Of a DNA stretch of 64,000 nt, positions 15,904-32,938 are shown piece after piece. Within the stretch, counting starts at the first letter, position 1, and the number at the start of each line of letters is the position of its first letter. The notes under the pieces were generated by a model. It was not told the DNA's origin, searched no databases, and worked only from the letters and a program-made list of their open reading frames with translations. Source of the stretch: Asticcacaulis endophyticus (lineage in GTDB: Bacteria; Pseudomonadota; Alphaproteobacteria; Caulobacterales; Caulobacteraceae); contig NZ_BMZB01000001.1 in the NCBI RefSeq assembly GCF_014652575.1, positions 983,722 to 1,047,721 of the forward strand, in the 5' to 3' direction. Position numbers and translations under genes: made by a program.

Positions 15904-18105
15904 ATGAAAACGCGTGATAATTATGGAAAAAGCAGTTCGGACGATGAAGCGGGTCTGGACCTTCGCGGGCTGATCGCTGACTTTCGGCGCTACTCGCTGC
16001 TGTTTGGCGTTGTGTTCTGTACCGCCTTTGTCCTGATCCTGTTTCCGCTGTTGTCGCAGACGCCGAAATATGTAGCGTCATCTGCCGTGATGATCGATCC
16101 GCGCTCCGTCAATATCACCAATGCCAGTGAGCAGGTGCTGTCGGATTTGCCGCAGGATGCCGCCACTATCGATACCGAAGTCTCCCTGATCAAGTCATCA
16201 TCGCTCGCGGAGATGGCCATCCGGGAACTGGATCTGGATAAGGACCCTGAGTTCAACCCGTTCCTTAACCCGCGCAAGAAATATTTCGGTCTGGTGACCG
16301 AGCCTCAGCGCCCCGAAGCGGCCCTGACGCCGCTTGAGAAAAAGGCTCGCCAGCAGATCATCACCAATATCGTGCTGGGCGGTCTGACTGTGCGCCGCGA
16401 AGGCACCACCCGCGTCATCAACATCAGCTATTCCAGCACCTCGCCGGAAAAGGCCATGCGCATCGCCGATGAGTGGGCCAACTTCTATCTGGCTCAGCAA
16501 ATGGAAGCGCGCTTTGAAGCGACCCGCAGTGCGTCCGGCTGGCTCGACTCGCGCCTTGATGAGCTGCGCGGTCAGGTGGAATCTGCCGAGCGTGCGGTTC
16601 AGCAATATAAGATCGCCAATAACCTGATGAGTTCGACCGGTTCTACGCTGACCGAGCAGGAAATCTCCAGCCTCAATCAGCAACTGGCTGTGGTGCGTGT
16701 TGACGAAGCCGAAAGCGAAGCTCGTCTGGCCACCGCCCGCCGTCAGCTTGCCGCCGGTTCGACCGGTGAAGATGTCGGTGAAGCCCTGAATTCCGGCGTG
16801 GTTGCCAATCTGCGCTCGCAAAGCGCCGAGGTTAGCCGCCGCGTAGCCGAACTGGAAGCCCGTTACGGCCCGCTGCATCCTGAAATCATCAAGGCCAAGC
16901 GTGAAAAGGCCGATATCGACCAGCAGATCCGCAACGAAATCGCCCGTATTATCTCTAACCTCGAAGCTCAGGTTCAGGTTCAGCGTCAACGCACCTCGTC
17001 TCTGGCCGGCAGCGTAGGCTCTGCCCGCGGTGTGCTGGCGGGCAACAACCGCGCTCAGGTTCGCCTGAACGAGCTTGAGCGTGATGCTCAGGCCGTCCGC
17101 AGCCTGTACGAATCATATCTGGAGCGTTTCAAGGAAACCTCGTCGCAGGAAGGCATGGCCAAGTCCGACGCCCGTATCGTGGCTAAGGCTAAGCTGCCGA
17201 TGGGGCCATCGTCGCCCAAGGTCTCCTTAAGCGTCGCATTGGCGCTGGTAGGGGCCTTTGGGGCCGGTGCCGCCGCTGTACTGGGTCGTCGGGCCTTCGA
17301 CAGCGTCCTGACCACCTCCACGGACGTTGAGCGTCATCTGCGCCAGCCTTATCTGGCCGGTCTGCCGGATCTGGCCTCGACGGTTGAAAAGGGTCATAAG
17401 CGCACAGATCCGGTCACCTATGTGACGGAAAAGCCCCTGTCGGTCTTTGCCGAAGGCTTCCGCAGCCTGAGAGCGTCCCTGCTCTATACCCGTGACGGCG
17501 AGCAGGCCCGCGTCATCGCCCTGACCTCCTGCCTGCCCGGCGAAGGTAAGACCACGGCGTCCATGTGTCTGGCTCAGATTGTCGCTATGGCGGGGCAGAC
17601 GGTTGTGGTTGTCGACTGTGACCTGCGCCGTAAGTCGATCAACGCCTATGTTCAGGATCAGCCCGAAGCTGGTATTCTGGAAGTGCTGGACGGCTCGGCC
17701 ACGCTTGATCAGGCCCTGACCGATGGTCCTGGCGGTAAGGTCAAGCTCCTGCCGGTCAAGCCGGAAAGCTATACCACCCGCGACGTATTTGGTGATCCGT
17801 CGATGGACGGCCTGATCGCTGAACTCAAAGAGCGCTTTGATGTAGTCATTATGGATACCGCTCCGGTGCTGCCGGTGGTTGATACCCGTATTCTAGTGCG
17901 TAAGGTCGATGCGGTAGTCATGCTTGTACACTGGCGTAAAACGCCGCGTGACGCCGCCCAGAAAGCCCTTGATCTGCTTATCAGTGCCGATGCGCCGATG
18001 GCCGGTGTGGCCCTGAGCCAGATCGACGTCAACCAGCAGGCCAAATACGCCTACGGCGACTCCGGCTTCTACTATAAGGCCTATAAGGGATATTACACCG
18101 AGTAG
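15904..18105 (+). CDS. Wzc-type polysaccharide co-polymerase with C-terminal BY-kinase (copy 2)
   Basis: Inner-membrane chain-length regulator and tyrosine autokinase, 733 residues, a close full-length paralogue of the 3489-5687 product. TM1 is at about 31-51, a coiled-coil-rich Wzz/GumC periplasmic region follows, TM2 is at about 440-460, and the kinase domain has Walker A LPGEGKTT near 545-553, Walker A' VVVDCDLRR and Walker B VIMDTAPV. Seven tyrosines lie in the last 20 residues. The start ATG at 15904 is followed by a strongly charged leader. It probably works with Wza copy 2 and the beta-barrel protein just upstream. A good terminator follows the stop codon. Confidence 0.93.
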   Translation: MKTRDNYGKSSSDDEAGLDLRGLIADFRRYSLLFGVVFCTAFVLILFPLLSQTPKYVASSAVMIDPRSVNITNASEQVLSDLPQDAATIDTEVSLIKSSSLAEMAIRELDLDKDPEFNPFLNPRKKYFGLVTEPQRPEAALTPLEKKARQQIITNIVLGGLTVRREGTTRVINISYSSTSPEKAMRIADEWANFYLAQQMEARFEATRSASGWLDSRLDELRGQVESAERAVQQYKIANNLMSSTGSTLTEQEISSLNQQLAVVRVDEAESEARLATARRQLAAGSTGEDVGEALNSGVVANLRSQSAEVSRRVAELEARYGPLHPEIIKAKREKADIDQQIRNEIARIISNLEAQVQVQRQRTSSLAGSVGSARGVLAGNNRAQVRLNELERDAQAVRSLYESYLERFKETSSQEGMAKSDARIVAKAKLPMGPSSPKVSLSVALALVGAFGAGAAAVLGRRAFDSVLTTSTDVERHLRQPYLAGLPDLASTVEKGHKRTDPVTYVTEKPLSVFAEGFRSLRASLLYTRDGEQARVIALTSCLPGEGKTTASMCLAQIVAMAGQTVVVVDCDLRRKSINAYVQDQPEAGILEVLDGSATLDQALTDGPGGKVKLLPVKPESYTTRDVFGDPSMDGLIAELKERFDVVIMDTAPVLPVVDTRILVRKVDAVVMLVHWRKTPRDAAQKALDLLISADAPMAGVALSQIDVNQQAKYAYGDSGFYYKAYKGYYTE

Positions 18106-18167: not shown

Positions 18168-20330
18168 TCAGTACATTGAACTTTTCTTGAACAGCCGCTC
18201 ATCCATCTGGGATAGGACGATGCCGATAACGGGTCCGCCGGTTTGTCTCAAACTGGACAGGGCCGCCTTAACTGCCCGCATCGGGGTCTTGGCCCAGCGC
18301 ACCAGCATAATGGTCTGATCGGCAAACTTAGTGAGGATCTGAGTTTCAGCAATCGCCAGAACCGGCGGCGTATCCAGAATGACAATGTCGTACTTATGGC
18401 GCAGATAGGTGATGAAGCGGTCCATGATCGGGGCTTCGAACACGCCGGTCACGTCGCGATCCTTGCGCGGCGCCAGCAGATAATCAACGCCGGTATCGTC
18501 GCTCAGGATAACATCTTCCAGATTGGCATCGCCTTGCAGCACTTCGATCAGGCCATTTTCGGCCCGCTTTCCCAGCGCGCGACTGAGGCCCGGACGGCGC
18601 AGATCGCATTCAACCACAATTACCGACTGACCGGACAGGGCCATGACCCTGGCCAGACAAACCGAGGTGGTCGATTTGCCCTCCGAAGGTAGGGGCGAAG
18701 TGATGGCGATAATCCCGCCATGATCATTCGCCGTATAAAGCAGAGCGGTACGTAAGCTTCTCAGTCCCTCAGCAAAAGCAGAACCCGGATTCTGAATGAC
18801 ATAATCGGGCAGCGACAGGGGCGCATTTTTGGACGGGGATTTAACTTTAACGAGCGTCGCCAGATGCGGCAGCCCCAGCTTATAGCCGATATCACCGGGG
18901 GCGATGATGCCGGTTTCAAAAATCTGACGGGTGAACACACCGCCGACACCGGCGATGGTGCCCAGACCCAGCGCAATTATAAAGGCCATGACCAGATTGG
19001 GGGAACTGGGCGCCGACGGGGTACGGGCCAGTGAGATCAGACGGGCATGAATATTTTGCGCCGGATTGGCCGTAAGTGATTGTTTATAAAGGTCAAGATA
19101 GTGTTCAAAAACCTCCTGAGCCGCGGTCGCATCATTTTCAAGCTGGCTGAGACCGGCGCTGGCGCTGTTGGCGGAGACCAGTTGGCCGGTGGCGGCCCCC
19201 AGACTGGACTGGGTCTGGCTGAGGCGGCGGCGGTCAACATCAACCTCGGCTTCGAGACTGGACAAAAGCCGGTCGCCTTCGATGCGGATTTGCTGGTCAA
19301 TATCGGAAAGCTGATCCTGCGCGGCGATGACCTGCGGGTGGCGGGGGCCGTAGGTGGTTTGCAGATCGGCAATCTGTCGCGTAATCTGGGCGCGTTTTAA
19401 GCGCAGGGTGGTCAGAACGCGTGAACCCACGGGGCCTGCCATTTCGGCGCTGACGCCGGTATTTTGCAATTGCTGGCGGGCGGTGGTGAGCTTGGCTTCC
19501 TGCTCGGCCAGATCGAGTTTGTTGCTGGCGACCTGTCGGTTCAGCGCTGAGATTTCGCTTTCGGTCAGGGTTGAGGTGCCAACGGTCATCAGGTTATTGG
19601 CGACCTTATAATTGGCCAGAGCTTCTTCGCGGGCGAGCACTTCGCCGCGCAGTTTATCCAGACGCGCAGCCATGCCGCTGCCGGCACTTTGCAGTTCGGC
19701 CTGATTCTGATCGATCTTTTGGGCGATATATTGCAGGCTCCATTCATTGGCGATATCTGCGGCCAGTTCGGGCGACGGCGATGAATAGTTCAGATAGACA
19801 ATGCGGGTGGTTTCCTGGCGTTTGATCTTCAGGCCATACAATAGCGCACCGGCAATGGCGCGCCGTCTAAGGGCTGCTTTTTCCCCTGGCGTTTGGGCGG
19901 GTTGCGAGGGTTGCGCGCTGACCTCAGTCTTTTTTGCCGTTTTGGGATCAACCGGTGGCGGCGCAAAGGCCGGGTGCTGATCCAGTTTTAGCGACTCAAC
20001 AACGCGCTCGGCCAGAGACACCTGTTGCAGCAAAACCAGTTCCGTATTGACCTGAAGCGATTCCGGCGTGTCATCCTGACGCAATTGAACCAGTGCCAGG
20101 TTTTCGGGGGTAAGGGCCACATTGCGGGCATCGAGAGCTACGATCGCGGTCGCCGTAAAAAGCTTGGGGCGGCTGCTGAGATAGAGATAGGTGAGCGCAA
20201 ATACGCCCACAAACAGCGCTAAAAATATCCATATATAACGGCGATAATCAAAGCCGATGGAGCGCAGATCAAGGCGGATTTGCAGAATATCTTCGCGGTC
20301 CGCCGCGATGTCGAAGGTTTCAGGCTTCAT
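18168..20330 (-). CDS. Divergent Wzc/GumC-type co-polymerase with BY-kinase domain but no tyrosine tail
   Basis: 720 residues from the chosen ATG at 20330 (an ATG at 20393 would add 21 residues). TM1 near residue 35-55, a long coiled-coil periplasmic region with the TYGPRHPQV motif, TM2 near 440-460, then a kinase-type ATPase with Walker A LPSEGKSTT (about 543), Walker A' VIVVECDLRRPG and Walker B VILDTPPV. The C-terminus ends ERLFKKSSMY, with a single tyrosine, whereas the two paralogues have seven. So either autophosphorylation occurs elsewhere or the domain acts as an ATPase switch only. It is a more distant paralogue, encoded on the opposite strand, and may control a different polymer or polymer length. 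Confidence 0.9.
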   Translation of the reverse strand: MKPETFDIAADREDILQIRLDLRSIGFDYRRYIWIFLALFVGVFALTYLYLSSRPKLFTATAIVALDARNVALTPENLALVQLRQDDTPESLQVNTELVLLQQVSLAERVVESLKLDQHPAFAPPPVDPKTAKKTEVSAQPSQPAQTPGEKAALRRRAIAGALLYGLKIKRQETTRIVYLNYSSPSPELAADIANEWSLQYIAQKIDQNQAELQSAGSGMAARLDKLRGEVLAREEALANYKVANNLMTVGTSTLTESEISALNRQVASNKLDLAEQEAKLTTARQQLQNTGVSAEMAGPVGSRVLTTLRLKRAQITRQIADLQTTYGPRHPQVIAAQDQLSDIDQQIRIEGDRLLSSLEAEVDVDRRRLSQTQSSLGAATGQLVSANSASAGLSQLENDATAAQEVFEHYLDLYKQSLTANPAQNIHARLISLARTPSAPSSPNLVMAFIIALGLGTIAGVGGVFTRQIFETGIIAPGDIGYKLGLPHLATLVKVKSPSKNAPLSLPDYVIQNPGSAFAEGLRSLRTALLYTANDHGGIIAITSPLPSEGKSTTSVCLARVMALSGQSVIVVECDLRRPGLSRALGKRAENGLIEVLQGDANLEDVILSDDTGVDYLLAPRKDRDVTGVFEAPIMDRFITYLRHKYDIVILDTPPVLAIAETQILTKFADQTIMLVRWAKTPMRAVKAALSSLRQTGGPVIGIVLSQMDERLFKKSSMY

Positions 20331-20437
20331 GTAAAATGCTTTTCCGCTGAAATATGAGCGCGTCAGATATAAAAGGCTGACCGGTGCCCGCACGCGGCCG
20401 TAGCCAGTCTATTTCAGGTATTATTTATGACCAGAAT

Positions 20438-20497: not shown

Positions 20498-21535
20498 CTA
20501 TAACCAAGGGGTGATTCGTGCGGTCTCAGACGCCAGCCAACGTGCACTCTCACGCGGGAAATCGGTCGCGGGATGATCGCTCAGGACACGCAGCATAGTC
20601 CGGCGGCGCGGCATGTCCGCCAGCATTTCATCCGGCGATAAGAGTAGCTGCTCAATTTTGCTCTCGGCGACGGGTAAAACCAAGGATGCGTCCGAGAACA
20701 GATCACTGACCCCAAAGACTAGGGCTGACAGACGCGCGGCAAATTGCGTGGTGTTAAAAAGCCCCTGAAGGCGGGCCTCCTGTTGCAGGGCCTTGATTTC
20801 TGGGGGCGACATCTGGCGAAGCGCCGTCAGCAGGTCCATAGCATAGCTGCCGCCCGGCTGACGGTTGTAAATAGCTTTCACAAGGTTCATCGCCGAGATA
20901 AGCGCTATATACTTAGTGTTAGGGGTTGGAATACTGTTTGAGCCCAAATTAACCTTAACAGGATTGCTCATAAATCTGTCAACATGGCGGGGTGCTGGCG
21001 ATCCGGGCTGCTGCAGGCGGTGGTGCAGATCGACCGAATGGGGGCCGGACGAATCAGTGAACAGGTGTTGCTCACCCAAAAACAGACGCCACCATAGACG
21101 GTGACATTCTGCCGGAACCGAAAATCCAGCGGCGACAAGCACTTCGCGGGCGCGGGAGAAGTCTTTTCTGGCCACCAAAAGGTCTGCATCGACACTTTTT
21201 TTCGAAAAAAAGTCGCCGTAGAGAATTTTTTGTTGCAGCGGGCCCTTATAAAATACGTGGTTAATGCTCGCAAATTCTAGTGTCAGGTGAGTTTTGTGAA
21301 CCAGGTGAAGGATGCGGGAATTGGTTAATGCGACCGTCTTGGTTTCACTTATGAAGTCTTTATAGTGCGGTGCATCATGCTCATAGGGGGGCAGGGTACG
21401 TGCAAAAAGCACACCAAGCTTGTTTTTAAGGGCATAATCAATTGATTTTTCACGATTTTCTTGTGGGCCGAGTGAGGGTTTTGGCGCGTGTCCAGGATCA
21501 AGCAGTTGGGCCAGATTCAGACACAGAAGGCTCAT
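20498..21535 (-). CDS. Nucleotidyltransferase-family protein of the lasso-peptide cluster
   Basis: 345-residue protein of the uncharacterised NTP_transf_5 type. The centre has FYKGPLQQKILYGDF followed by the metal-binding-like VDADLLVARKD (Asp pair near residue 117-119) and a helical segment as in other nucleotidyltransferase folds. Proteins of this family recur in kinase-bearing lasso-peptide clusters and some other peptide clusters, where they may modify the peptide or the phosphate placed by the kinase; the reaction is not established to my knowledge. It is divergent from the precursor gene. The ATG at 21535 is chosen because GAGG lies 8 bases upstream; an ATG at 21592 would add 19 residues and overlap the precursor promoter region. 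Confidence 0.72.
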   Translation of the reverse strand: MSLLCLNLAQLLDPGHAPKPSLGPQENREKSIDYALKNKLGVLFARTLPPYEHDAPHYKDFISETKTVALTNSRILHLVHKTHLTLEFASINHVFYKGPLQQKILYGDFFSKKSVDADLLVARKDFSRAREVLVAAGFSVPAECHRLWWRLFLGEQHLFTDSSGPHSVDLHHRLQQPGSPAPRHVDRFMSNPVKVNLGSNSIPTPNTKYIALISAMNLVKAIYNRQPGGSYAMDLLTALRQMSPPEIKALQQEARLQGLFNTTQFAARLSALVFGVSDLFSDASLVLPVAESKIEQLLLSPDEMLADMPRRRTMLRVLSDHPATDFPRESARWLASETARITPWL

Positions 21536-21699
21536 GCGTCGGTCCTCAATGAAAAGAAATGATAAAAACGGATGTAAAGTAGTTGGTGGCACTATACATC
21601 ATTTATGTTGAGAAATCCTTATGCTTGACTTTAAGCACTCAATATGAGAGATTTTTCTCGTTATCCAAAGGGGTACGCCCCATATCGGAGATTATTGAA

Positions 21700-21846
21700 A
21701 TGACGCAAGTTAAGGCTGTTTACGAAGCCCCGACCGTTGCTAAGGTCGGCGACTTTGAAACCACCACCCAGAACACGGGTACCGGTGGTACACTGGATGC
21801 CTCCTTCCCGGTTGGCACCCCGTTTGCGGACCTGACCTTCTCTTAA
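21700..21846 (+). CDS. Lasso peptide precursor (A gene)
   Basis: 48-residue ribosomal peptide precursor. GGAG at 21687-21690 sets the ATG at 21700. The leader carries the lasso motif with its normal spacing: Tyr8, Pro11, Val13, Gly17 and Thr23 (YxxPxxxxxG...T). If Thr23 is the usual penultimate leader residue, the core starts at Asn25 and Asp33 is core position 9, giving a standard nine-residue ring. If the core starts at Gly27, the ring would have seven residues. The tail runs ASFPVGTPFADLTFS and ends in Ser48, as expected where the precursor's terminal serine is phosphorylated by the cluster kinase. It lies 164 bases from the divergent nucleotidyltransferase gene; that gap must hold both promoters. 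An in-frame upstream GTG-type extension has no support. Confidence 0.88.
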   Translation: MTQVKAVYEAPTVAKVGDFETTTQNTGTGGTLDASFPVGTPFADLTFS

Positions 21847-21872
21847 GGCCGGGCCTGTGAGTAAAGAGTTCT

Positions 21873-21910
21873 AAAATGCCCGGCGGGTTTTATGTCGCCG
21901 GGCATTTTTT
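21873..21910 (+). terminator. Terminator/attenuator between lasso precursor and processing genes
   Basis: AAAATGCCCGGCG (21873-21885) pairs perfectly with CGCCGGGCATTTT (21896-21908) and is followed by a run of T. It begins 27 bases after the precursor stop codon and 46 bases before the B1 gene. A partial terminator here would give much more precursor mRNA than enzyme mRNA, a common arrangement in peptide clusters. Confidence 0.88.
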
Positions 21911-21955
21911 ACATATATTATCTTAGTTTCAAAATTTTTAATCCGGAGTGGTTGC

Positions 21956-22240
21956 GTGGCGCTGGTGAATTCCTCAATCATTACGGCGTCGGGCGATGTG
22001 GTCGGCACGGAACTGGCCGGTGGGCTGGCTCTGCTGGATCTACGCACCGGCAGCTATTTTAATCTTAATCAGACCGGCGCCTATGTCTGGTCGCAGATCG
22101 AAGGCTCCGCCAAGACCATTGGCGATATCCTGGGCGCGATGACACAGGCCTATGATGTCAGTGCCGACGTTCTGGAACAGGATTTGCAGACTTTGCTGAC
22201 GCAATTGTCAGAACAGGGCCTGATTGCCGTCAGCGCGTAA
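21956..22240 (+). CDS. PqqD-like leader-recognition protein (lasso B1)
   Basis: 94-residue protein of the PqqD family, the RiPP recognition element that binds the lasso leader and presents it to the protease and cyclase. Typical features: VVGTELAGGLALLDLRTGSYF (split here: LDLRTGSYFNLN) beta segment near residue 24-36, the GAYVWSQIEG helix near residue 39-48, and the C-terminal winged-helix with LEQDLQTLLTQL. The GTG start at 21956 is preceded by GGAG with 7-base spacing. It follows the precursor and its terminator. Lasso systems with separate B1 and B2 proteins use this arrangement. Confidence 0.9.
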   Translation: MALVNSSIITASGDVVGTELAGGLALLDLRTGSYFNLNQTGAYVWSQIEGSAKTIGDILGAMTQAYDVSADVLEQDLQTLLTQLSEQGLIAVSA

Positions 22241-22280
22241 AGCGCCTGACCGTCGGCCCAAAACTTGGATACATAAAGCC

Positions 22281-22700
22281 ATGCAGACGGCTTGGAAAAA
22301 TATCCTGTCGGGAACCAAATATTTCGCGCTGAACCTCTATTTCCGCGCCTATATCCTTGCCTTTGGGTATAAAAAAATAAAACAGCACATCCGTGAAATT
22401 GAGGGCCCGCCCGCCCCACCATGGGAAGCCCGCCGGGTCGGATGGTTTGTGTTTAAGACCGCCAAACCCATTCCCGGCGCGACCTGCCTGTCACGGGCCA
22501 TGACCGCGCAACATATCCTTAAACGCCATGGGTTTGGCTCATCCTTATGTGTCGGTGTGGCCCAGAGCGATAAACAGGGCGATAAGGGGCTATTGGCCCA
22601 TGCCTGGGTCATGAGCGGCGATCAGGTCGTGGTTGGCAATGAATCCGGTGAGCTTGAGCGCTATAAGCTGCTGACCCGGATGGGTGCGCAGATCCCTTGA
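22281..22700 (+). CDS. Lasso peptide leader protease (B2, transglutaminase-like)
   Basis: 139-residue cysteine protease that removes the leader peptide before ring closure. The catalytic Cys69 is in PGATCLSRAMTAQ and the catalytic His107 in LLAHAWVMSGD, the two conserved blocks of the family; the third acidic or Asn position is near VVVGNESGE. The ATG at 22281 gives the usual length; a TTG at 22224 inside the B1 gene would add 19 residues that do not resemble the family. The stop codon overlaps the TTG start of the next gene (TTGA), so translation of B2 and the cyclase is probably coupled. Confidence 0.88.
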   Translation: MQTAWKNILSGTKYFALNLYFRAYILAFGYKKIKQHIREIEGPPAPPWEARRVGWFVFKTAKPIPGATCLSRAMTAQHILKRHGFGSSLCVGVAQSDKQGDKGLLAHAWVMSGDQVVVGNESGELERYKLLTRMGAQIP

Positions 22701-24568
22701 GCGCCATTGCCGGTATTTTTCTGAACTCTGAAGGTTCATCACACGACCTGGTGTTAACCATGTTGCGGGCCATGCCCTATCGTGCGCCCGATGGAACCGA
22801 GGTCTGGGCGGAGGGGCACTCTGCCTTGGGCATGGGCCTGATGCGCACCCTGCCCGAAGACCCGGCTCAGGCCACCATTTTTGAAGGCGGTACTGTGCGC
22901 GCTGTGGTCGATGCGCGGCTGGATAACCGTCCCCAATTGCTGGCCGCCCTCGGTATCACGAACGAAAGCCTGTCCGAAGGGGCGCTGATATTGGCGGCGT
23001 GGCGGCGGTGGGGTGAGGACTGCGTCCATCACTTCATCGGTGACTTTGCGTTCATTATATATGATGCCGACACCCACCGCATTTTTGCCGCCCGCGACCA
23101 TATGGGCGTAAAGCCTTTGTTTTACCGCGCCGACGGGGCCGGACTGGCCTTGGCCAGTGAGGCGAAGGTGCTGGCTGCACCGGGCGCGCCGTTTACCGAT
23201 GTGTCCAAGGCGGGGCTGATTGAGGCTGATGTGGCCGATTTCATGACCGGGCAACTGCCGCGTGATCACCGGGTGGTTTATGACGGCCTGTGGCGGGTGC
23301 CACCGGGGCATATCTTAAGCGCCGGGCCTGATTTGGTGCCGACCTTGACCTGTTACTGGCAGGCCGCCCCAGATGCGACGATAACCGACAAAAGCCCGCA
23401 GGCCTTACGCGCCCTGCTGACCGAGGCGGTGCGTTGCCGCCTGCGCTCCCCTCAGCCGGTGGCGGCCCTGCTCAGTGGCGGGCTGGATTCGACCTCGATC
23501 GCCTGTCTGGCCAGTCAGTTGCAACCCGATGCGCCGGTCGACAGTTTTTCGGTGGTGTTTGATAAGACGCCTCACTTAAGCGAGCGCGACTATATAGACG
23601 CCGGTATTGCCCACGCCCATTTCCGTCCGCGTCATGTGGCCATGGATGGTTACGCACCGTTTGGTGATTTCCAGGCCCTTCTGGCGCTGGAGGGGCGGCT
23701 GTTTGGCGCGCCGGGTCTGCGGATGACCAGTTCTCTGTTCCAGCGGGTCGGGGCTGAGGGCTTTCGCGTCGTCTTTGAAGGCCACGGCGGCGATGAGGTG
23801 CTATCCCACGGCTATGGCCGGTTCCACGAACTGGCGCAGCGAGGGCAGTGGCGGGAGTTGTGGGCGCAAACCCGTGCCTTTTCCGGCCTGTACGGGCAGG
23901 GGCGGCTGGGTCTGTTTATCCTGCTGTTCATTCGCTATGGGCGCTTTAAAGGTTCGCACTCTCTGCGACGCGTCGCCGGTTGGGTGCAAAAGCGCTGGCC
24001 CAAGGCTGACCGGGACGTGTTGCTTAAGCCGGAGTTTCGCACGCGCGCGGCGGCGGACCACCGCCCTCAGCATCAGGATGAAGCATCGCAGCACACGGCC
24101 TTTCTGCAATCGCCGGGGCTGGCGTCCAGCCTTGAGGTGCTTGAGGCCGCTGCCGCCGGGGCCGGCCTTGAGGCGCGCTTTCCGTTCTTCGATAAGCGGG
24201 TGGTCGAGTTTTGTCTGTCGCTGCCGTCTGAGGCCAAGCTCGATCAGGGCCATGTCCGCTTGATCCTGCGTCAGGCGATGGAGGGCGTTTTGCCCCCCAA
24301 AGTCCAGTGGCGGCGCAGCAAGTTCGATTTCGCGCCCCATATCGCGACCGGCCTTTTGACCCATCATGATGGCCTGATGCGTGACGTGATCGACGATAAC
24401 CGTGATAATGTGGCGGCCTTCGTTGACCTTGAACGGGTGAAAAAATCGCTCAATCGGTTACGTAAGCGGGGAGCGAAGGTTTCGGCCTATGATTTGCAAG
24501 CGGTATGGCGAACCGTCGCCTTATCGCTCTGGCTGCGGCACAGCCAGGGTAAAACCCATTCAAATTGA
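22697..24568 (+). CDS. Lasso macrolactam synthetase (C protein, asparagine synthetase B-like)
   Basis: 623-residue ATP-dependent cyclase. It adenylates the side chain of the ring Asp/Glu of the core and joins it to the core N-terminus. The N-terminal half is a class II glutaminase-like domain, but the sequence starts MSAIAGIF, so the nucleophilic Cys2 of true asparagine synthetase is absent, as expected for a lasso enzyme that uses no glutamine. The C-terminal half has the PP-loop SGGLDSTS near residue 258-265 and the ARFPFFDKRVVEF block. It starts with TTG overlapping the B2 stop. The length agrees with known C proteins (about 600). Confidence 0.92.
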   Translation: MSAIAGIFLNSEGSSHDLVLTMLRAMPYRAPDGTEVWAEGHSALGMGLMRTLPEDPAQATIFEGGTVRAVVDARLDNRPQLLAALGITNESLSEGALILAAWRRWGEDCVHHFIGDFAFIIYDADTHRIFAARDHMGVKPLFYRADGAGLALASEAKVLAAPGAPFTDVSKAGLIEADVADFMTGQLPRDHRVVYDGLWRVPPGHILSAGPDLVPTLTCYWQAAPDATITDKSPQALRALLTEAVRCRLRSPQPVAALLSGGLDSTSIACLASQLQPDAPVDSFSVVFDKTPHLSERDYIDAGIAHAHFRPRHVAMDGYAPFGDFQALLALEGRLFGAPGLRMTSSLFQRVGAEGFRVVFEGHGGDEVLSHGYGRFHELAQRGQWRELWAQTRAFSGLYGQGRLGLFILLFIRYGRFKGSHSLRRVAGWVQKRWPKADRDVLLKPEFRTRAAADHRPQHQDEASQHTAFLQSPGLASSLEVLEAAAAGAGLEARFPFFDKRVVEFCLSLPSEAKLDQGHVRLILRQAMEGVLPPKVQWRRSKFDFAPHIATGLLTHHDGLMRDVIDDNRDNVAAFVDLERVKKSLNRLRKRGAKVSAYDLQAVWRTVALSLWLRHSQGKTHSN

Positions 24569-24714
24569 TACACAATTTGGTGGAGCCGTGGTCTGAGCCC
24601 GGCAGGAGTGGCGTTTCAGTAAAGATTAAAATGCGTGCGCTCTTAGTTTTACGCAACGTCTTCGCAGAAAACCGCGCAACACTTTTCTGCACGTTGCTCA
24701 AGAAAGTTGTCTTG

Positions 24715-25620
24715 ATGACCAAGCCTCTCTTTCGTCACACCGCCTACGGGCTGACGATCCATTCCGAGATCGAACTGCCGGAGCTTTTGCCGTCAGATAA
24801 TGATGCTGCCGATCTGGTGATCCGGTGCGCGTCGATCGGGCGTGACCTGCCGGTGGGGGCACCTGGGACCTTCTTTGAGTTTAGCCGCGACCTTCAGATG
24901 CTGGACTGGGCCGCGGTCGGTAAGTTTGAGATCAGAGGCTCATCGGAAATTGTGGTCGATGCGCGCGCTGATGTGCCGGAAAAGATCGTGCGCCTGCCGC
25001 TGCTCGGGCCGGTTATGGCCATGCTGTTGCATGTGCGTAGCCTGATGGTGCTGCACGCCAGCGCGGTGTTAATTAATGGCAAGGGCGCTGGCTTTCTGGG
25101 GGATAAACGCGCCGGGAAATCGACGACCGCCGGGGCTTTGGTCGGTAAGGGCTATCCGCTGCTGACCGATGACGTGCTGGCCTTTGATTTCAAGCCAGAG
25201 GTGCGCATCCTGCCGGGCTTCCCGCAGATGAAGCTGACCGATGAATCGGCGGCGTCCGTGGCGATTGAACACGCCCGCCCGCTGGAAATGATCGACGTGC
25301 CGGGCTTTGATAAGCGCCAGCACAGCGTCAGTGCGCATTTTTCCAATGACTATGCTGTACCGGGCCGCCTTTATGTGCTGGAACGGGGGCCGCAGGCGCA
25401 GGTCATCGACCTAAGCCCGGTCGAGGCGTTCCGCGCTCTGATGCGCTTTTCCTATCTGATCCGCTTTGGTAAAGAGGCCTTGTCGGCGGGCAGTGCGCCG
25501 GGTTTTATGCAGCAATGTGCTTATCTGGCTGAATTAGGTGTGGTCCGGCGGTTGGTTGTGCCGGATTCGCTGGAGCGCTTGGGCGAAGCTGTGGCTATTA
25601 TAGAGCATGACCTTGGCTGA
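24715..25620 (+). CDS. HPr-kinase-like lasso peptide kinase
   Basis: 301-residue protein related to the C-terminal domain of HPr kinase. The P-loop is GDKRAGKST near residue 129-137, followed by LLTDDVLAFDF near 149-159, where acidic residues bind metal in the family. In paeninodin-type clusters such kinases phosphorylate the C-terminal serine of the precursor; the precursor here does end in Ser. The ATG at 24715 begins MTKPLFRHTAYGLTIHSE, a normal family start. A TTG at 24565, overlapping the cyclase stop as TTGA, would add 50 residues unlike the family; I reject it but it is not excluded. The 146 bases between the cyclase stop and the ATG hold no other gene. Its end overlaps the ABC gene by 14 bases. 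Confidence 0.87.
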   Translation: MTKPLFRHTAYGLTIHSEIELPELLPSDNDAADLVIRCASIGRDLPVGAPGTFFEFSRDLQMLDWAAVGKFEIRGSSEIVVDARADVPEKIVRLPLLGPVMAMLLHVRSLMVLHASAVLINGKGAGFLGDKRAGKSTTAGALVGKGYPLLTDDVLAFDFKPEVRILPGFPQMKLTDESAASVAIEHARPLEMIDVPGFDKRQHSVSAHFSNDYAVPGRLYVLERGPQAQVIDLSPVEAFRALMRFSYLIRFGKEALSAGSAPGFMQQCAYLAELGVVRRLVVPDSLERLGEAVAIIEHDLG

Positions 25621-27373
25621 TACCCGCGATTCGCCTATAAAGAGTGGCCTTAAGACTTGGCAGCGTTGCCGGTCGCTGGCGGCTTACGTCCTGTCGGTAT
25701 CGCGCAAACGCTCAATCTTATCCGTTGTCTTCCTGATTTTGGGTAGCTTCAGCGAAGGGGTGTCGCTGCTGCTGCTGTTGCCGCTGTTGCAGTTCATCAG
25801 CGCGCAGGGCACAGGGACGGTGCTCGACTTGCCGACCGGGCCACTGGCACCGGTGCTGGGGGCGTCGTTTCAGATTGAGCTGTGGCTGATTCTGGCGATC
25901 TTTGTCGCGGTGGTGACCATCGGAGCGCTGTTTGCGCGGTTCAAGAATATCTACATGTCGGCGCTGCTGGTTGATACGGTCAATCGTCTGCGCATCGACC
26001 TGTTTGCCAGCATCTCTAAGGCCAGATGGTCGGCGGTGGCACGTAAACGCACGGCGGACCTTGACCATGTTCTTACCGGCGATATTGACCGGGTGCAGAC
26101 GGCGACCGCCAGCCTGTTTCTGCTGATCCAGAACGCGGTGTTTTTATGCGCCTACATGCTGCTGTCGCTGATGATTTCGTGGCAGATGACGGCGATTGCG
26201 GCGGTGGCCGGGGCTTTGGTGTTTGTGGCCCTGCGCCCCATCCGTAAGCAGGGCGCGATCTTTGGCGATAAGCTGACGACCGAGCGCCAGCGCCAGTACC
26301 GCACTATCAGCGATTTTCTGGCGGGCCTTAAGGTCACCAAAAGCTTTAATGCTGAACCGCGCTATATCGCTGAGCTGAACGGCACCTTAGAGCGGATGCG
26401 CGGCGACCTGATGCGTTATACCCGCATCAATTCGCTGGGGACGACCCTGTTTCAGATCCTGAGCGCGGTCATGGTGTGCGTCTTCATCTATGTCGCCTAC
26501 GCCGTCTACGCCATGCCGTTTTCGCGCATCATTGTGCTGTTGGTGATCTTCATGCGCTTATCGCCGCGCTTTACCGGCACCCAAGATCATCTGCAAAACG
26601 CCATTATTAATTTACCGGCGTTTGAGACCATGCAGCGCGTCAAGGCCGACTGTGACGCCGCCGTGGAAATCCCGCAGGCGGCGACGACGCTGTCTCCGTC
26701 GGGGCTAAAGCACAGCCTTGATTTCGAGGCGGTCAGTTTTGCTTATGGTGATCATCTGGCGGTCGATGCCGTCAGTTTCAGCCTGCCTGCCCGCCAGATC
26801 ACGGCCATAGTCGGCCCCTCCGGCGGCGGCAAGAGCACTATGGCTGATCTGGTCATGGGCCTGCTGATGCCTGATAGCGGCCGCATCCTGATTGATGGCG
26901 TGGCCTTAGAGGCCGCCCATGGGCCGTCATGGCGCACCCACATTGCTTACGTCCCGCAGGAAACCTATCTGCTGTCGGCAACCGTGGCGGAAAACCTGAA
27001 AATAGCCGCCCCCCATGCCACAGTGGATGATATGTGGCATGCGCTGCGCCAAGCGCAGGCAGCAGCCTTTATTGAGCGCCTGCCGCAGGGGCTGGATACG
27101 CCGGTCGGTGACGGCGGTATCAAATTGTCGGGCGGGGAGCGTCAGCGGGTGGCGCTGGCCCGCGCCCTGCTGCGTCAGCCGGCGCTGCTGATCCTTGATG
27201 AATCGACCAGCGCGCTTGATCGTGAAAATACCCAAGGCATATTATCGACGATCGATAGCTTACGCGGGCAAATGACCGTGCTGTTAATCACCCACAATCC
27301 GGTGGTGGTCGAATACGCCGATAAGGTGATCACAGTTGAGGGCGGGCGCGTATCGGGTCATGGAGATGGATAA
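25607..27373 (+). CDS. ABC transporter, fused permease-ATPase (lasso exporter D)
   Basis: 588-residue half-transporter, active as a dimer in the inner membrane. Six membrane segments occupy about residues 25-340; the ATPase domain has Walker A GPSGGGKST near 402-411, Q-loop VPQETYL, signature LSGGERQRVALARALL near 507-522, Walker B LLILDEST and H-switch ITHNP. Its place as last gene of the lasso cluster, overlapping the kinase gene, identifies it as the likely exporter and immunity factor for the mature peptide. No TonB receptor, isopeptidase or GntR-type regulator gene is seen nearby. It is the last gene before a 138-base gap. Confidence 0.9.
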   Translation: MTLADTRDSPIKSGLKTWQRCRSLAAYVLSVSRKRSILSVVFLILGSFSEGVSLLLLLPLLQFISAQGTGTVLDLPTGPLAPVLGASFQIELWLILAIFVAVVTIGALFARFKNIYMSALLVDTVNRLRIDLFASISKARWSAVARKRTADLDHVLTGDIDRVQTATASLFLLIQNAVFLCAYMLLSLMISWQMTAIAAVAGALVFVALRPIRKQGAIFGDKLTTERQRQYRTISDFLAGLKVTKSFNAEPRYIAELNGTLERMRGDLMRYTRINSLGTTLFQILSAVMVCVFIYVAYAVYAMPFSRIIVLLVIFMRLSPRFTGTQDHLQNAIINLPAFETMQRVKADCDAAVEIPQAATTLSPSGLKHSLDFEAVSFAYGDHLAVDAVSFSLPARQITAIVGPSGGGKSTMADLVMGLLMPDSGRILIDGVALEAAHGPSWRTHIAYVPQETYLLSATVAENLKIAAPHATVDDMWHALRQAQAAAFIERLPQGLDTPVGDGGIKLSGGERQRVALARALLRQPALLILDESTSALDRENTQGILSTIDSLRGQMTVLLITHNPVVVEYADKVITVEGGRVSGHGDG

Positions 27374-27511: not shown

Positions 27512-28645
27512 GTGACCATGCGGGTACTCTATCTTGTGCATGATCTGGAAGATGCTGCGGTGCGTCGCCGAACCCTTATGCTTGAGGCGGGCGGGGCGCA
27601 GGTCTATCTGGCGGGCTTTCGCCGGTCACAAAAACCGGCAGATGATTCCGGCAAGGTCATCGATCTGGGCGAAACCCGCAACGGTGCCTTTGCCCATCGT
27701 GCCGCCAAGACGATCACCAGTGCGCCGTCTCTGATCCGTGCCCTTAAAGGGGAACGTCCGGACATTATCATCGCCCGTAATCTGGAGATGCTGTTTCTGG
27801 CCCGTCAGGCCGCCAGACGGTTTACGTCCGCCCCCGTCATTGTTTACGAAAGCCTCGATATCCACCGCCTGCTGCTGCGCCGTGATTTTATCGGCGCGCT
27901 ATTGCGTGGGGCCGAACGCAGTCTGATGTCGCGGGCATCACTGGTCGTCACTAGTTCCCCGGCCTTTGTTGAGAACTATTTTGCGCCCATGCAGAACCTT
28001 ACCCTGCCGGTTTTCCTGCTGGAGAATAAGGTGCTGGACTTGAGCAGCCGTAGTGTGGGCGTTACGGCGGCTAAAAACATAGACGGGGTTATCACCATCG
28101 GCTGGTTCGGGGCCCTGCGCTGCTGCAAATCACTGGATCTGCTGTCAAAGTTCACGCGCCTGATGGACGGGCGAGTCAAGGTCGTGATGCGTGGCAAACC
28201 TGCCTATAATGAGTTTGAGGATTTTGATGCGCAGGTCGCGGCTGAGCCCGACATCACATTTGAGGGCCCGTACAGTGCCGAGGATTTGAGCGCGCTTTAT
28301 GCGCAGGTCGATCTGACCTGGGCGATTGATTTTTTTGAAGAAGGCCAGAACTCAAAATGGTTGCTGCCTAACCGGCTCTATGAAGGCAGCCGTTATGGTT
28401 CGGTGCCGATTGCCATGAACGGCACGGAAACCGGAAATTTTGTCAGCCGTCACGGCATCGGCCTGACGCTGGATGAGGCGACACCGCAGGCCTTGATCGC
28501 GCTGTTTGAGACGCTCACCCCGGATCGCCTGTCGACCTTGCGGGCGACCCTTAAGGCCTGTCCGCCGTCTCTGTTTACCGCCACCCGTGACGATTGTGTG
28601 GGTTTTGTCGACCACCTGAAAACATTGCAGGTGGCACATGCGTGA
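27512..28645 (+). CDS. Glycosyltransferase, ExoL-like GT-B enzyme
   Basis: 377-residue GT-B fold protein. It has an N-terminal Rossmann start (MRVLYLVHDLEDAAVRRR), then IIARNLEMLFLARQAA and VIVYESLDIHRLLL, which I associate with the ExoL-like group of succinoglycan transferases. The C-terminal donor domain has IGWFGALRCCKSLDLL and the acidic NRLYEGSRYGSVPI block. The GTG at 27512 or the ATG at 27518 may start it. The gene overlaps the next, ExoA-like, gene by 8 bases, so the two probably act on the same repeat unit. The sugar is not readable. Confidence 0.78.
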   Translation: MTMRVLYLVHDLEDAAVRRRTLMLEAGGAQVYLAGFRRSQKPADDSGKVIDLGETRNGAFAHRAAKTITSAPSLIRALKGERPDIIIARNLEMLFLARQAARRFTSAPVIVYESLDIHRLLLRRDFIGALLRGAERSLMSRASLVVTSSPAFVENYFAPMQNLTLPVFLLENKVLDLSSRSVGVTAAKNIDGVITIGWFGALRCCKSLDLLSKFTRLMDGRVKVVMRGKPAYNEFEDFDAQVAAEPDITFEGPYSAEDLSALYAQVDLTWAIDFFEEGQNSKWLLPNRLYEGSRYGSVPIAMNGTETGNFVSRHGIGLTLDEATPQALIALFETLTPDRLSTLRATLKACPPSLFTATRDDCVGFVDHLKTLQVAHA

Positions 28646-29660
28646 CGCGGGACTGGCTATGAATTTACCGACGGCAGACCCTGTGCGTACCGAAAAAGTG
28701 CTGGTGGTGGTTCCGTGCCTGAATGAGGCCGCCCATATCGGTAAGCTGCTGGACTGGCTGCTGCGCACCGAAGGCGAGGCCGGGTCTCTGATTGTCGTCG
28801 CTGATGGCGGATCGAGCGATGGCACGCAGGATATTGTGCGCCGCTATGTTGATGATGGCGCGCCGGTACGGTTGCTGCACAATCCGAAGAAAATCCAAAG
28901 CGCGGGTATCAATCTGGCGGTCGAGCGCTACGGTGACGACGCTGAGTATCTGATCCGCATAGATGCCCACGGTACCTATCCGGAGGATTTTTGTGAGCAA
29001 CTGATGGACGAGGCGCGCAAGGTCGGCTGTGCCTCGATCGTGGTGTCGATGAACACTATCGGCGCAGGCGCATTCCAGAAGGCCGTAGCGATCGCCCAAA
29101 ATTCTCCGCTCGGCAATGGCGGCTCAAAACACCGCGTGGTCAATAAGGGCGAATTTGTCGATCACGGCCACCATGCCCTGATGCGTATCAAGGCGTTTCG
29201 CGAAGTGGGCGGCTATGACGAAAGCTTTGCCCATAACGAAGACGCGGAACTTGATTTCCGGTTGCGTAAGATCGGCTACTACATCTGGATGACGCCGAAA
29301 ACCGTCATGGAATATTTGCCGCGCACCACCGCCAGGGGCCTGTTTAAGCAATACCGCGGCTATGGCAGTGGTCGTATTCAGAATATCCTTAAGCATAAAC
29401 AAACGCCGGGCCTGCGTCAGATCATTCCGGCCATGGTGCTGCCGTCGATCCTGATGGCGCCGCTGGCGTTGATCTGGTGGGTGTGCGCTCTGCCGCTGAT
29501 CGGGTGGCTGTGCCTGTGGGGCGGGCTGTCGGTGATCGAAGGCGTGCGGACGCGCTCGGTCGAAGGGTTCATGTCCGGCTATGCCGCCATGACCATGCAC
29601 GTCGCCTGGTCGGTCGGGTTCTGGAAAAAATGGTTTGAGCTGAAATTTAAAGCGGCTTAA
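28638..29660 (+). CDS. Glycosyltransferase family 2, ExoA-like (second copy)
   Basis: 340-residue GT-A transferase with the same plan as the 5754-6791 product: VLVVVPCLNEAAHIG start, VADGGSSDGTQDIV, the LIRIDAHGTYP metal site, HNEDAELDFRLRKIG block, and C-terminal hydrophobic helices at about 265-330. Shared phrases (LHNPKKIQSAGINL here, LIHNPAKLQSAGVNL there) show true paralogy. ATG 28638 overlaps the previous gene; an internal ATG at 28659 is an alternative. ExoL- and ExoA-like enzymes side by side suggest a succinoglycan-like backbone step. Confidence 0.87.
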   Translation: MRDAGLAMNLPTADPVRTEKVLVVVPCLNEAAHIGKLLDWLLRTEGEAGSLIVVADGGSSDGTQDIVRRYVDDGAPVRLLHNPKKIQSAGINLAVERYGDDAEYLIRIDAHGTYPEDFCEQLMDEARKVGCASIVVSMNTIGAGAFQKAVAIAQNSPLGNGGSKHRVVNKGEFVDHGHHALMRIKAFREVGGYDESFAHNEDAELDFRLRKIGYYIWMTPKTVMEYLPRTTARGLFKQYRGYGSGRIQNILKHKQTPGLRQIIPAMVLPSILMAPLALIWWVCALPLIGWLCLWGGLSVIEGVRTRSVEGFMSGYAAMTMHVAWSVGFWKKWFELKFKAA

Positions 29661-30753: not shown

Positions 30754-31461
30754 ATGACCGACGCGATTAAAATCCTCGGTAGTGTGGCCGAGGTGGTGCA
30801 CCAGCATCTGCCCCATGTTCTGGCCAACCGCCGCGACGTGACCTGGAAAGAGGACGGCAGTCCGGTGACGGTCGCCGATGTCTTTCTGGAAAACGCCATC
30901 AAGGATCATCTGACCGGTCTGATGGGCGATATCAATTTCGTCGGCGAAGAAAGCTATGCCGTGGGGGCTGCCGACGATAAGGACTGGACGGCGGTGCTTG
31001 ATCCGATCGATGGCACTGAGAACTTCTGCTCTGGTCTACCGGAATGGGGCGTGTCCCTGTCGATCTGGCATAAGCGCGAACATGCCGCCTCCATGCTGAT
31101 GGTGCCGGAAATGGGGCTTAAGCTCATGACTGGCGATAAGATTGATTACCAGACGTCACGGATCATGGGATTTTCGTCTTCGATCAATGATAAGCTGGTC
31201 GAAATGATCCCCGTCGGCGGCGAAGCCCGCATCATGGGCTGTGCCGTTTATAACCTGTTTAATGTCGTGCGCGGGTCGCTGGCGCGGTTTGTCAATCCGG
31301 CCGGCGCCAAAAGCTGGGATATGCTGGCCGGTGTTCAGCTTGCGCGTGAACACGGCTGTGAAGTTATTGTTGAAGGAGCCCCCTATGACGGACGCTATCT
31401 CGAACCTGATCGGAAACATCGCTTCGACATACGCCACCGACACGATCTTCATCCTCGGTAA
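30754..31461 (+). CDS. Inositol-monophosphatase family sugar phosphatase
   Basis: 235-residue Mg-dependent phosphatase. It shows GEES near residue 66, the metal motif LDPIDGTENF near 83-92 and WDMLAGVQLAREHG near 188-201, all intact. Family members act on inositol phosphate, histidinol phosphate, PAP or sugar phosphates. Its last 77 bases overlap the start of the NeuB-like fusion gene, so tight co-expression is likely. In a nonulosonic-acid pathway that makes a 9-phosphate intermediate it could be the phosphatase, but this is inference from position. ATG 30754 is chosen over a TTG at 30709 that would add 15 hydrophobic residues. Confidence 0.82.
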   Translation: MTDAIKILGSVAEVVHQHLPHVLANRRDVTWKEDGSPVTVADVFLENAIKDHLTGLMGDINFVGEESYAVGAADDKDWTAVLDPIDGTENFCSGLPEWGVSLSIWHKREHAASMLMVPEMGLKLMTGDKIDYQTSRIMGFSSSINDKLVEMIPVGGEARIMGCAVYNLFNVVRGSLARFVNPAGAKSWDMLAGVQLAREHGCEVIVEGAPYDGRYLEPDRKHRFDIRHRHDLHPR

Positions 31462-32923
31462 AGGCCCGTCGATCGACCAGATCGACCCGCAGATTTTCGC
31501 GGGCTCTCTGGTCATCGCCATGAACGATGCCGAGCGCATCGCGCCTGCCGACATCAGCGTATTCCATGCGGCCTGGGCCGCCGACAGCGTTCAGGCCAAT
31601 GGCCTGAAATCGCGCGCCTACCTGACCTCGACACCGCTGAAAGCAGCGGATCGTTCGGTGGTGCAACTGCCGCATACGCCGCTGACGCAGGAATCTGCCG
31701 ATCTGATGATGCAGCGCTTTCAGGCCGGTGATCTGGTCATCGAAGATATTCTGTTCATCACCGCCCTTCAGGTCGCCCGTAAAGTCGCCGCCGTTCGTGG
31801 CCGTCCGCAGACGGTTTACATGGTCGGCCTTGATTTTAGCTATGATGGCAGCCAGGCCTATAGTGAGCGCATCGACAGCGATTTTTCCCACGCCCGCGAC
31901 GCTGACCGTAAGATGGTATTCAACACGCAGGAATTCTATTTCCTGAACGCGCTCTATGTCCTTAAGGGCTCGGAAATCGAAGTTCGCCATGTTGGCACCA
32001 AATCGTTCAGCGCGCTAACGCCTACCGAACTGAACGCGCAACTGGGCACGCCGGAGCCGCTTGAGGCCAGCGACAATATCCATAAGGTCGATGTTATCGC
32101 AGAGCTGACCACCAACCATTTTGGCGACCGTCTGCGTCTTGAGCGCATGATCCGCTCCGCTAAGGCGGCGGGGGCGGACTACATAAAATTGCAAAAGCGC
32201 GATGTCGAAAGCTTCTATTCGACTGAGCAGCTCAAAGCCCCATATGTGTCGCCGTTTGGCTCAACCTTTGGCGATTACCGCCATCAGTTGGAACTGAGCA
32301 AGGACGATTTCGCGTTCGTCGATACGCTATGTAAAAGCCTTGGCATGGGCTGGTTCGCGTCGATCCTCGATAAGCCGTCGTTTGAGTTCATGCTCGATGT
32401 CAAACCGGCTATGGTCAAGCTGCCGTCGACCATTTCCGAGCACACCGATTATCTGGAATATGTCTCGAAAAACTACACCGGCTCGGTGGTCTTATCGACC
32501 GGCATGACCGACGAGGCCTATGAGCGCTGGGTGCTGGATAATTTCACGGCGTGCGAAAAGCTGATCCTGATGCAGGCCAATTCGGCCTATCCGACCCCCG
32601 CCGAAGACACCAATATCGCGGTCGTGCGCCGTTACCATGAACTGTCGGCACAAAATCCGCGTATCGTACCGGCGTTTTCCAGTCATGATTTCGGCTGGCT
32701 GGGTTCGGCGCTGGCCGTGGCGGCGGGTGCGCGCATGGTCGAAAAGCATGTTAAGCTCGGCAATACCGAATGGGCGCACTTTGATGCCGTCGCGGTTGAT
32801 TTGACTACCCCGGCCTTTAAGGAATATGTCGATCAGATCCGCCTGACCGAACGCATGGTCGGCTCCGGCGAAAAACGGGTCAACAAAAGCGAACACCACA
32901 AATACCGGGTGGCGCAGGCTTAA
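31385..32923 (+). CDS. Two-domain protein: GT42/DUF115-like domain fused to a NeuB-like nonulosonate synthase
   Basis: 512 residues from the ATG at 31385, set by AAGGAG 7 bases upstream. Residues 1-225 show FILGKGPSIDQID, then a conserved Asn in IAMNDAER, and VYMVGLDFSYDGSQAYS, a layout like GT42 sialyltransferases or the related DUF115/MptE-like domain. Residues about 232-510 are NeuB-like: VIAELTTNHFGD, DYIKLQKRD, LSTGMT, NSAYPTPAEDTNI, SSHDFG and GARMVEKHVKL. NeuB condenses a hexosamine-type sugar with phosphoenolpyruvate to a nine-carbon acid. The usual C-terminal SAF (antifreeze-like) domain is missing. The next gene encodes a NeuA-like enzyme, which supports the call. An upstream reading start at 31241 is rejected as out of character. 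Confidence 0.8.
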   Translation: MTDAISNLIGNIASTYATDTIFILGKGPSIDQIDPQIFAGSLVIAMNDAERIAPADISVFHAAWAADSVQANGLKSRAYLTSTPLKAADRSVVQLPHTPLTQESADLMMQRFQAGDLVIEDILFITALQVARKVAAVRGRPQTVYMVGLDFSYDGSQAYSERIDSDFSHARDADRKMVFNTQEFYFLNALYVLKGSEIEVRHVGTKSFSALTPTELNAQLGTPEPLEASDNIHKVDVIAELTTNHFGDRLRLERMIRSAKAAGADYIKLQKRDVESFYSTEQLKAPYVSPFGSTFGDYRHQLELSKDDFAFVDTLCKSLGMGWFASILDKPSFEFMLDVKPAMVKLPSTISEHTDYLEYVSKNYTGSVVLSTGMTDEAYERWVLDNFTACEKLILMQANSAYPTPAEDTNIAVVRRYHELSAQNPRIVPAFSSHDFGWLGSALAVAAGARMVEKHVKLGNTEWAHFDAVAVDLTTPAFKEYVDQIRLTERMVGSGEKRVNKSEHHKYRVAQA

Positions 32924-32938
32924 AAAGCGGGGAAGATC

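Follow-up and report, generated by a model that had tools for sequence, protein, structure and literature searches.

The question raised by the Asticcacaulis endophyticus stretch analysed here (contig NZ_BMZB01000001.1, positions 983,722 to 1,047,721; 64,000 nucleotides, called the window) is what a lasso peptide cluster with a kinase of its own, K, is doing inside an exopolysaccharide (EPS) locus. The answer favoured here, with moderate confidence, is that the genes at window positions 20498-27373 form a working kinase-type lasso cluster dedicated to an EPS system. The product is most likely a C-terminally phosphorylated and further decorated lasso peptide serving the EPS layer; the parts of this reading drawn from sequence are the gene set, the leader register, the Asp at core position 9, the intact catalytic residues and the EPS location across that part of the K clade which was examined. 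In the loci examined, the lasso peptide cluster of this clade was never found without EPS genes. The preliminary description of the window had recorded the EPS locus and drawn nothing from it, and the EPS genes, found on both flanks of the cluster, proved to be its most informative part.

The cluster was found to contain seven genes, present at or near the positions first proposed for them. The precursor A (21700-21846, plus strand, 48 amino acids; NF033521 26.7 bits, cut-off 19) was followed by a predicted PqqD-like leader-binding protein, B1 (21956-22240, plus strand, GTG start; PF05402 72.7 bits), a predicted leader cysteine protease, B2 (22281-22700, plus strand; NF033537 60.6 bits, cut-off 33), an asparagine-synthetase-like macrolactam cyclase, C (22697-24568, plus strand; PF00733 192 bits; NF033535 lasso cyclase model 505.6 bits, just below the cut-off of 525), the HprK-like kinase K (24715-25620, plus strand; assigned from alignments, an HprK profile match, fold and clade) and an ABC exporter, D (25607-27373, plus strand; PF00005 and PF00664). 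N alone, a protein with the NTP_transf_5 nucleotidyltransferase fold (20498-21592; PF14907 75.5 bits, cut-off 31.2), was found on the minus strand, divergent from A. B2 and C overlap, C starting at a TTG over the B2 stop, and K and D also overlap. The lasso assignment of the preliminary description was borne out by the profile searches, with A and B2 above their cut-offs, C just under its own and B1 in the PqqD family.

The N-terminus of C was found to be (M)SAIAGIF, with Ser in place of the glutaminase Cys2, which agrees with the lack of that Cys noted before. The synthetase motif SGGLDS was present in the window and in 12 of 12 relatives, and C69 and H107 of B2 were conserved in 12 of 12 aligned relatives. 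The closest cyclases were those of Asticcacaulis sp. UBA2476 (96% identity in C) and A. machinosus (89%), all other matches among 69 loci being at or below 32%. The gap between A and B1 contained a hairpin with a U-run (21876-21910, plus strand), a probable attenuator or terminator by its fold statistics: the segment 21847-21925 gave a folding z of -3.37, and 1 of 200 shuffles was equally stable. A pattern scan for promoters and terminators gave no excess over shuffles, and this hairpin was missing from its list. The precursor was unchanged in three sister genomes although 1-3 synonymous codons differ, and comparison with a fourth showed 11 synonymous and 3 non-synonymous codon differences; a decayed cluster was ruled out, the substitutions being mostly synonymous. 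With a short leader-bearing precursor containing Thr(-2) and Asp9, a B1/B2 pair and a synthetase-like C lacking the Cys, the cluster is, by its gene content, a complete, intact lasso cluster of the type that carries both K and N.

The K protein scored 19.6 bits against Hpr_kinase_C, for which Pfam sets a cut-off of 33.3. When 17 K sequences, the window's included, were combined into a profile, it matched solved HprK chains at E 1.3e-9, with the His, the P-loop and both Asp aligned, and the AlphaFold2 model of K (mean pLDDT 92) has the PEPCK/HprK fold, matching PEPCK and HprK structures. The window K contained the P-loop GDKRAGKST and the residues H114, K135, D152 and D153, invariant in all 17 aligned K proteins. 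By alignment with HprK, these four residues would correspond to the His-Lys-Asp-Asp catalytic motif reported for lasso kinases (PMC9266682; this and the other articles cited are drawn on in excerpt). The kinase-type label given to the cluster at the outset is in keeping with the profile match, the fold and the invariant residues.

In a maximum-likelihood tree of 81 K proteins, whose bootstrap had not fully settled, 22 proteins with the P-loop GDKxAGKST were found on one side of one branch (support 99/89); the clade member at locus L188 contained the variant ADKGVGKST. The tree mixes families, L102 being placed with L191 (82/77) and L101 with L174 (96/76), and the clusters therefore seem to have moved between families. 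Apparent TAG codons at L102 and L175 were found to sit just 5′ of an ATG before K, so that both K genes are open. Among 248 other Caulobacteraceae genomes, 20 contained a K relative at E <= 1e-5, and 8 of these 20 carried K of the window's clade. The K type of the window is thus not unique in the family. A second kinase-type group was seen in the same family (L107:3852, L108:10465, L111:10824 and L112:3307), with candidate precursors that contain a WxxP leader, lack a clear Thr(-2), terminate in ...HD.LHLS or ...QDFLHLS and perhaps hold very short lasso cores.

K was searched genome-wide, irrespective of EPS, in 249 genomes of Caulobacteraceae, 385 of the class, 25 of the genus and 398 of the phylum, as well as in 226 and 229 genomes of two orders and in plasmids, the genome draws overlapping. 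From the class-wide search 20 regions round the best matches were taken, and from the plasmids the best 2 of 12 matches; another, from Thalassobaculum, shares the coordinates of L128. Six EPS markers (two Wzc proteins, the export protein, the beta-barrel protein, the sugar transferase and the flippase) were sought by tblastn with the window proteins in stretches of up to 20.9 kb, and distant EPS loci may be under-counted because the queries were the window's own EPS proteins only. EPS markers were found at 21 of the 21 clade loci besides the window, which represent 12 of 12 lineages from five families and two plasmids (Paracoccus sp. MC1862 and Sulfitobacter indolifex), the lineages having been collapsed by hand. 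They were found at 10 of the 53 loci holding other K relatives, which were chosen as K matches and do not all show lasso genes, at 0 of 20 Caulobacteraceae lasso loci without K, nearly all of the isopeptidase type, and at 0 of 20 arbitrary loci, taken at round-number positions in five clade genomes. Fisher tests against the 12 clade lineages gave 1.6e-7 for the other K loci and 4.4e-9 for each of the K-less lasso and arbitrary sets, with remaining kinship ignored. The K-less lasso loci were hand-picked as 20 of the first 29 B2 matches, the nine others being omitted in some cases for a nearby K or a contig edge and in some for no stated reason; an isopeptidase was present in 17 of the 20, L165 and L167 had other genes of the isopeptidase type but no isopeptidase, and L154 had neither. 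The order B1-B2-C-K was conserved in 14 of the 14 loci drawn, followed by D after K in 12 of them. Outside the clade, the K loci L192, L195, L197, L199 and L200 were also seen near Wzc and polysaccharide export genes, and kinase-type loci in general may be linked to EPS more loosely, to judge by their gene neighbourhoods.

The genes flanking the window cluster are, by their predicted products, an EPS locus. The upstream side was found to contain a sugar transferase, a polysaccharide export protein, a beta-barrel protein and two Wzc-like proteins, each with GNVR and AAA_31 matches, one of which is a chain-length/tyrosine kinase protein adjoining N (18168-20393, minus strand) and the other lies beyond it (15904-18105, plus strand). 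The downstream side contained the glycosyltransferases GT4 (27512-28645, plus strand; PF13579/PF13439), which was found again near other clade clusters, and GT2a (28638-29660, plus strand; PF00535), together with a NeuB-family protein, a cytidylyltransferase, a polysialyltransferase-like protein and a flippase. At E <= 1e-30, GT2a was present in 7 of 25 Asticcacaulis genomes, exactly the seven with clade K, which belong to three lineages (Fisher 2.1e-6, uncorrected for relatedness). The eighth Asticcacaulis genome with K, G099, contained K of another kind and no GT2a. The NeuB-family, cytidylyltransferase and polysialyltransferase-like genes were located at 31241-36393, and the EPS of this locus may, on their account, contain nonulosonic acid. 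The two Wzc-like genes stand tail to tail, and of their counterparts in L099 (G068) that adjoining N was only 65% identical and the other 98%.

The window precursor was found to contain the leader MTQVKAVYEAPTVAKVGDFETTTQ followed by the predicted core NTGTGGTLDASFPVGTPFADLTFS, with a predicted N1-D9 ring and a C-terminal Ser. The mass calculated for this core after cyclisation is 2354.107 ([M+H]+ 2355.114), to which each phosphate would add 79.966 and each hexose 162.05; the A. machinosus core departs from it at two positions. The register was set by the leader motif YxxPxL, which occupies positions -17 to -12 (PMC10368454), and T(-2)Q(-1) and a core with D9 follow from it. With the same leader spacing, Thr(-2) and Asp9 came out in each of 18 precursors, comprising 17 from cluster loci, the window included, and one orphan from a Nostoc plasmid; C-terminal Ser was found in 17 of the 18. 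The precursor of L169, a 19th distinct sequence outside this set, has the identical register as printed. The scans demanded a YxxP-like motif and never T(-2) or D9; two of them also demanded Ser/Thr at or adjacent to the terminus, and in another, which did not, all 6 distinct clade precursors terminated in Ser. Two cores beginning at Gly (GTGGTLD with a ring of 7 and TGGTLD with a ring of 6) were rejected, because the spacing from YxxP to T(-2) sets residue 1 at Asn25 and D at position 9, as in all 18. The consensus xxxxGxxLDAxFPxxTPxxxLTFS was common to 13 of the 16 cores compared. In the 24-position alignment of these 13, D9, F12, T16 and T22 were conserved in 13, P17 and S24 in 12 and L21 in 11; L100, L101 and L103, whose tails differ, were left out of the count. 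The tail of L191 (13098, minus strand) was prolonged after LT and terminated in CGVDGGMS, still with Ser. The core family was also seen to reach a plasmid of Nostoc sp. UHCC 0302, where an orphan precursor (L190:11986-12132) contains the core GLKDGSALDKDFPTGTPRGKLTFS; tblastn (1e-3) found no cluster genes within 12 kb of it, and it is therefore uninformative on EPS. The window core starts with Asn; metanodin (2025) is said to be the earliest lasso peptide for which Asn1 was demonstrated (PMC12670498).

In N, the residues D134, D136 and D187 were invariant in 6 aligned rows (alignment numbering begins at residue 2). The N model (pLDDT 82) showed weak likeness to the nucleotidyltransferases MenT1, ANT(2'')-Ia and LnuA and weaker likeness to FKRP, matches too weak for the fold search to fix the chemistry of N. 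At E 1e-5, N was found in 20 of 21 clade loci and in 0 of 53 other-K, 0 of 20 K-less lasso and 0 of 20 arbitrary loci. A relative of N was also seen on the Methylobacterium tardum plasmid pMt-1 (L223, 9811-12834) beside a PqqD-family gene; no EPS, kinase, cyclase or other lasso genes are listed for that stretch, the gene table of which is incomplete.

By analogy with described systems, B1 would bind the YxxP leader, and K, perhaps aided by B1, would add one or more phosphates to Ser24 of the linear precursor; a phosphorylated product, as had been proposed, is plausible on the same grounds. B2 would then cleave after T(-2)Q(-1), C would close the N1-D9 lactam around the tail, N would attach a further group, glycosyl or nucleotidyl, onto the phosphate, and D would export the product. 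On genomic grounds the exported peptide would act with the local EPS, as a matrix component, on the polysaccharide chain or as a production signal, and would probably not be a free-standing antibiotic. The tie between the clade and EPS has outlasted apparent transfers between families and onto plasmids, and the core changes slowly; both observations speak for a function in common with EPS.

The main rival, considered rather unlikely, is that EPS loci are insertion hot spots and that the lasso cluster is there by shared transfer, its product being an ordinary diffusible lasso peptide (an antimicrobial or a signal) with no EPS role. Two clade loci are on plasmids, one with transposases nearby, the K tree departs from family lines, and the study of Bacilli reads patchy spread as selection-driven transfer typical of biological-conflict genes (PMC13381572). 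EPS cassettes without a lasso cluster also exist: GT2a was found in 22 of 199 Caulobacteraceae genomes and 14 of the 22 were without clade K, so that the cassette can do without the peptide, and the idea of a cassette exclusive to lasso carriers, which holds inside the genus, fails at the family level. GT2a did not adjoin K in G114 (another contig) and G010 (about 22 kb off), the EPS gene content varied among clade lineages, and position alone is no proof of shared function because EPS loci are variable and gather foreign genes. These observations count against a dedicated EPS role, as do several from the peptide side: the C-terminal Ser tally was partly built in by the Ser/Thr requirement of two scans, L100, L101 and L103 lack the LTFS tail consensus while retaining D9 and the C-terminal Ser, the core of L175 (13273, minus strand) terminates in FSN, its last residue not being Ser although K is open, and N extends beyond the clade, in that L105, L107 and L112 have weak N-like matches near K. 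Against simple co-transfer, however, EPS markers accompany every clade locus examined and none of the 20 K-less lasso loci of the same family, and the core is conserved across families, which is unexpected for fast-changing weapons.

That K and N arose as EPS enzymes and owe their present neighbourhood to history, with N perhaps acting in EPS synthesis instead of on the peptide, appears quite improbable. K matches HprK_rel_A and B1 matches PqqD_rel_X, both weakly (the NCBIfam HPr-rel-A/PqqD models), and on the Paracoccus plasmid N was found separate from the lasso genes, beside a glycosyltransferase; but K follows B1-B2-C in every locus drawn, N was absent at E 1e-5 from the 53 other-K loci, including 10 with EPS markers (the weak matches named above fall in three others), and published lasso clusters apply an HprK-like K and N to the peptide (PMC8498205, PMC10368454, PMC9266682). 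It is very doubtful, too, that K phosphorylates another residue in the ring or loop, as BsfK does on core Ser3 (PMC10368454). The window core contains several ring Thr as well as Ser11, its Ser residues being 11 and 24 only, but position 11 is variable whereas Ser24 is kept in 12 of the 13 cores aligned. An extension of the EPS-dedicated reading, in itself improbable, is that the peptide becomes part of the EPS: K would phosphorylate the Ser, N would make a sugar or nucleotidyl handle, and the local glycosyltransferases would build on it or link it to the chain. If this were true, the knotted peptide would cap, prime or cross-link the polymer covalently in many Alphaproteobacteria. The idea would also fit the E. 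coli work on PsmN, which left room for a glycosyltransferase of the host to act once nucleotidylation had taken place (PMC9266682).

The isopeptidase and TonB receptor usual in lasso clusters of this genus had been described as absent, and tblastn with the proteins of the other lasso cluster of the same genome indeed found no relative in the 64 kb; 21 related loci likewise gave no tblastn match. That other cluster (G000:C2 ~75900-84610; L118:1900-10613), of the astexin type, was seen to contain FecR, a TonB receptor, an S9-family isopeptidase-like protein, a cyclase and a B protein, with a precursor that terminates in T-Q-GGAPGGPEPSNQKAAIGISED. Astexin-type clusters (PMC11006600) share with the window cluster the lasso peptide and the genus, and differ in having the isopeptidase and TonB receptor.

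Sphingobium yanoikuyae, the source of the kinase SyanK, is presumably an alphaproteobacterium; the reviews cited next call it a proteobacterium. Kinase-type lasso clusters were described in 2016, and SyanK was reported to (poly)phosphorylate the C-terminal Ser of the linear precursor (Zhu 2016 FEBS Lett via PMC8498205, PMC9266682). The SyanK-type cluster thus resembles that of the window in being proteobacterial and in its kinase and C-terminal Ser; the excerpts make no mention of an EPS context for it, and it was compared by description and not by sequence. The bsf cluster of Bradymonas sediminis contains the same set A, B1, B2, C, D, K and N and YxxPxL at -17, but has Ile(-2), a G1-D8 ring and a phosphate on Ser3, where the window has Thr(-2), N1-D9 and a predicted Ser24 site (PMC10368454). 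The claim that the cluster is a different class for the group is only partly right: novelty of the kinase class in alphaproteobacteria is not supported, SyanK of Sphingobium and the Bradymonas gene set having already been published. Pseudomycoidin of Bacillus pseudomycoides shares an HprK-like kinase and a nucleotidyltransferase (PsmK, PsmN), and its C-terminal phospho-Ser carries hexoses (PMC8498205, PMC9266682), where PsmN may be a glycosyltransferase, or may be a nucleotidyltransferase after which an enzyme of the host acts (PMC9266682). Pseudomycoidin differs in belonging to Bacillota; N of the window stands divergent from A, and PsmN was likened to it by description.

The nearest precedent for the neighbourhood is found in Bacilli, where atypical lasso clusters with HprK-like kinases, NTP transferases and exporters (paeninodin and LPP) lie inside capsular polysaccharide loci, and where a biofilm role is called tempting by the authors (PMC13381572, Nat Commun 2026). 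Paeninodin has a Trp leader motif and LPP a signal-peptidase route without a cyclase, whereas the window cluster has a Tyr leader and belongs to alphaproteobacterial loci; by the WxxP leader rule of that study it is not a paeninodin cluster, the leader containing YEAP (PMC13381572). In the titles and abstract starts of open-licence PMC articles, no report was found of a kinase-lasso/EPS link in Alphaproteobacteria or of a kinase-type cluster in Asticcacaulis. The pattern described here extends the Bacilli remark (PMC13381572) across phyla, with controls, and suggests where the unexplained nucleotidyltransferase step leads. A clade with all examined loci in EPS regions and a slowly changing core also offers a direct way to test the role of phosphorylated lasso peptides, in bacteria that are harmless and can be cultured. 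The kind of cluster is itself known; what is new is the EPS company kept by the K clade, which extends the fresh lead from Bacilli.

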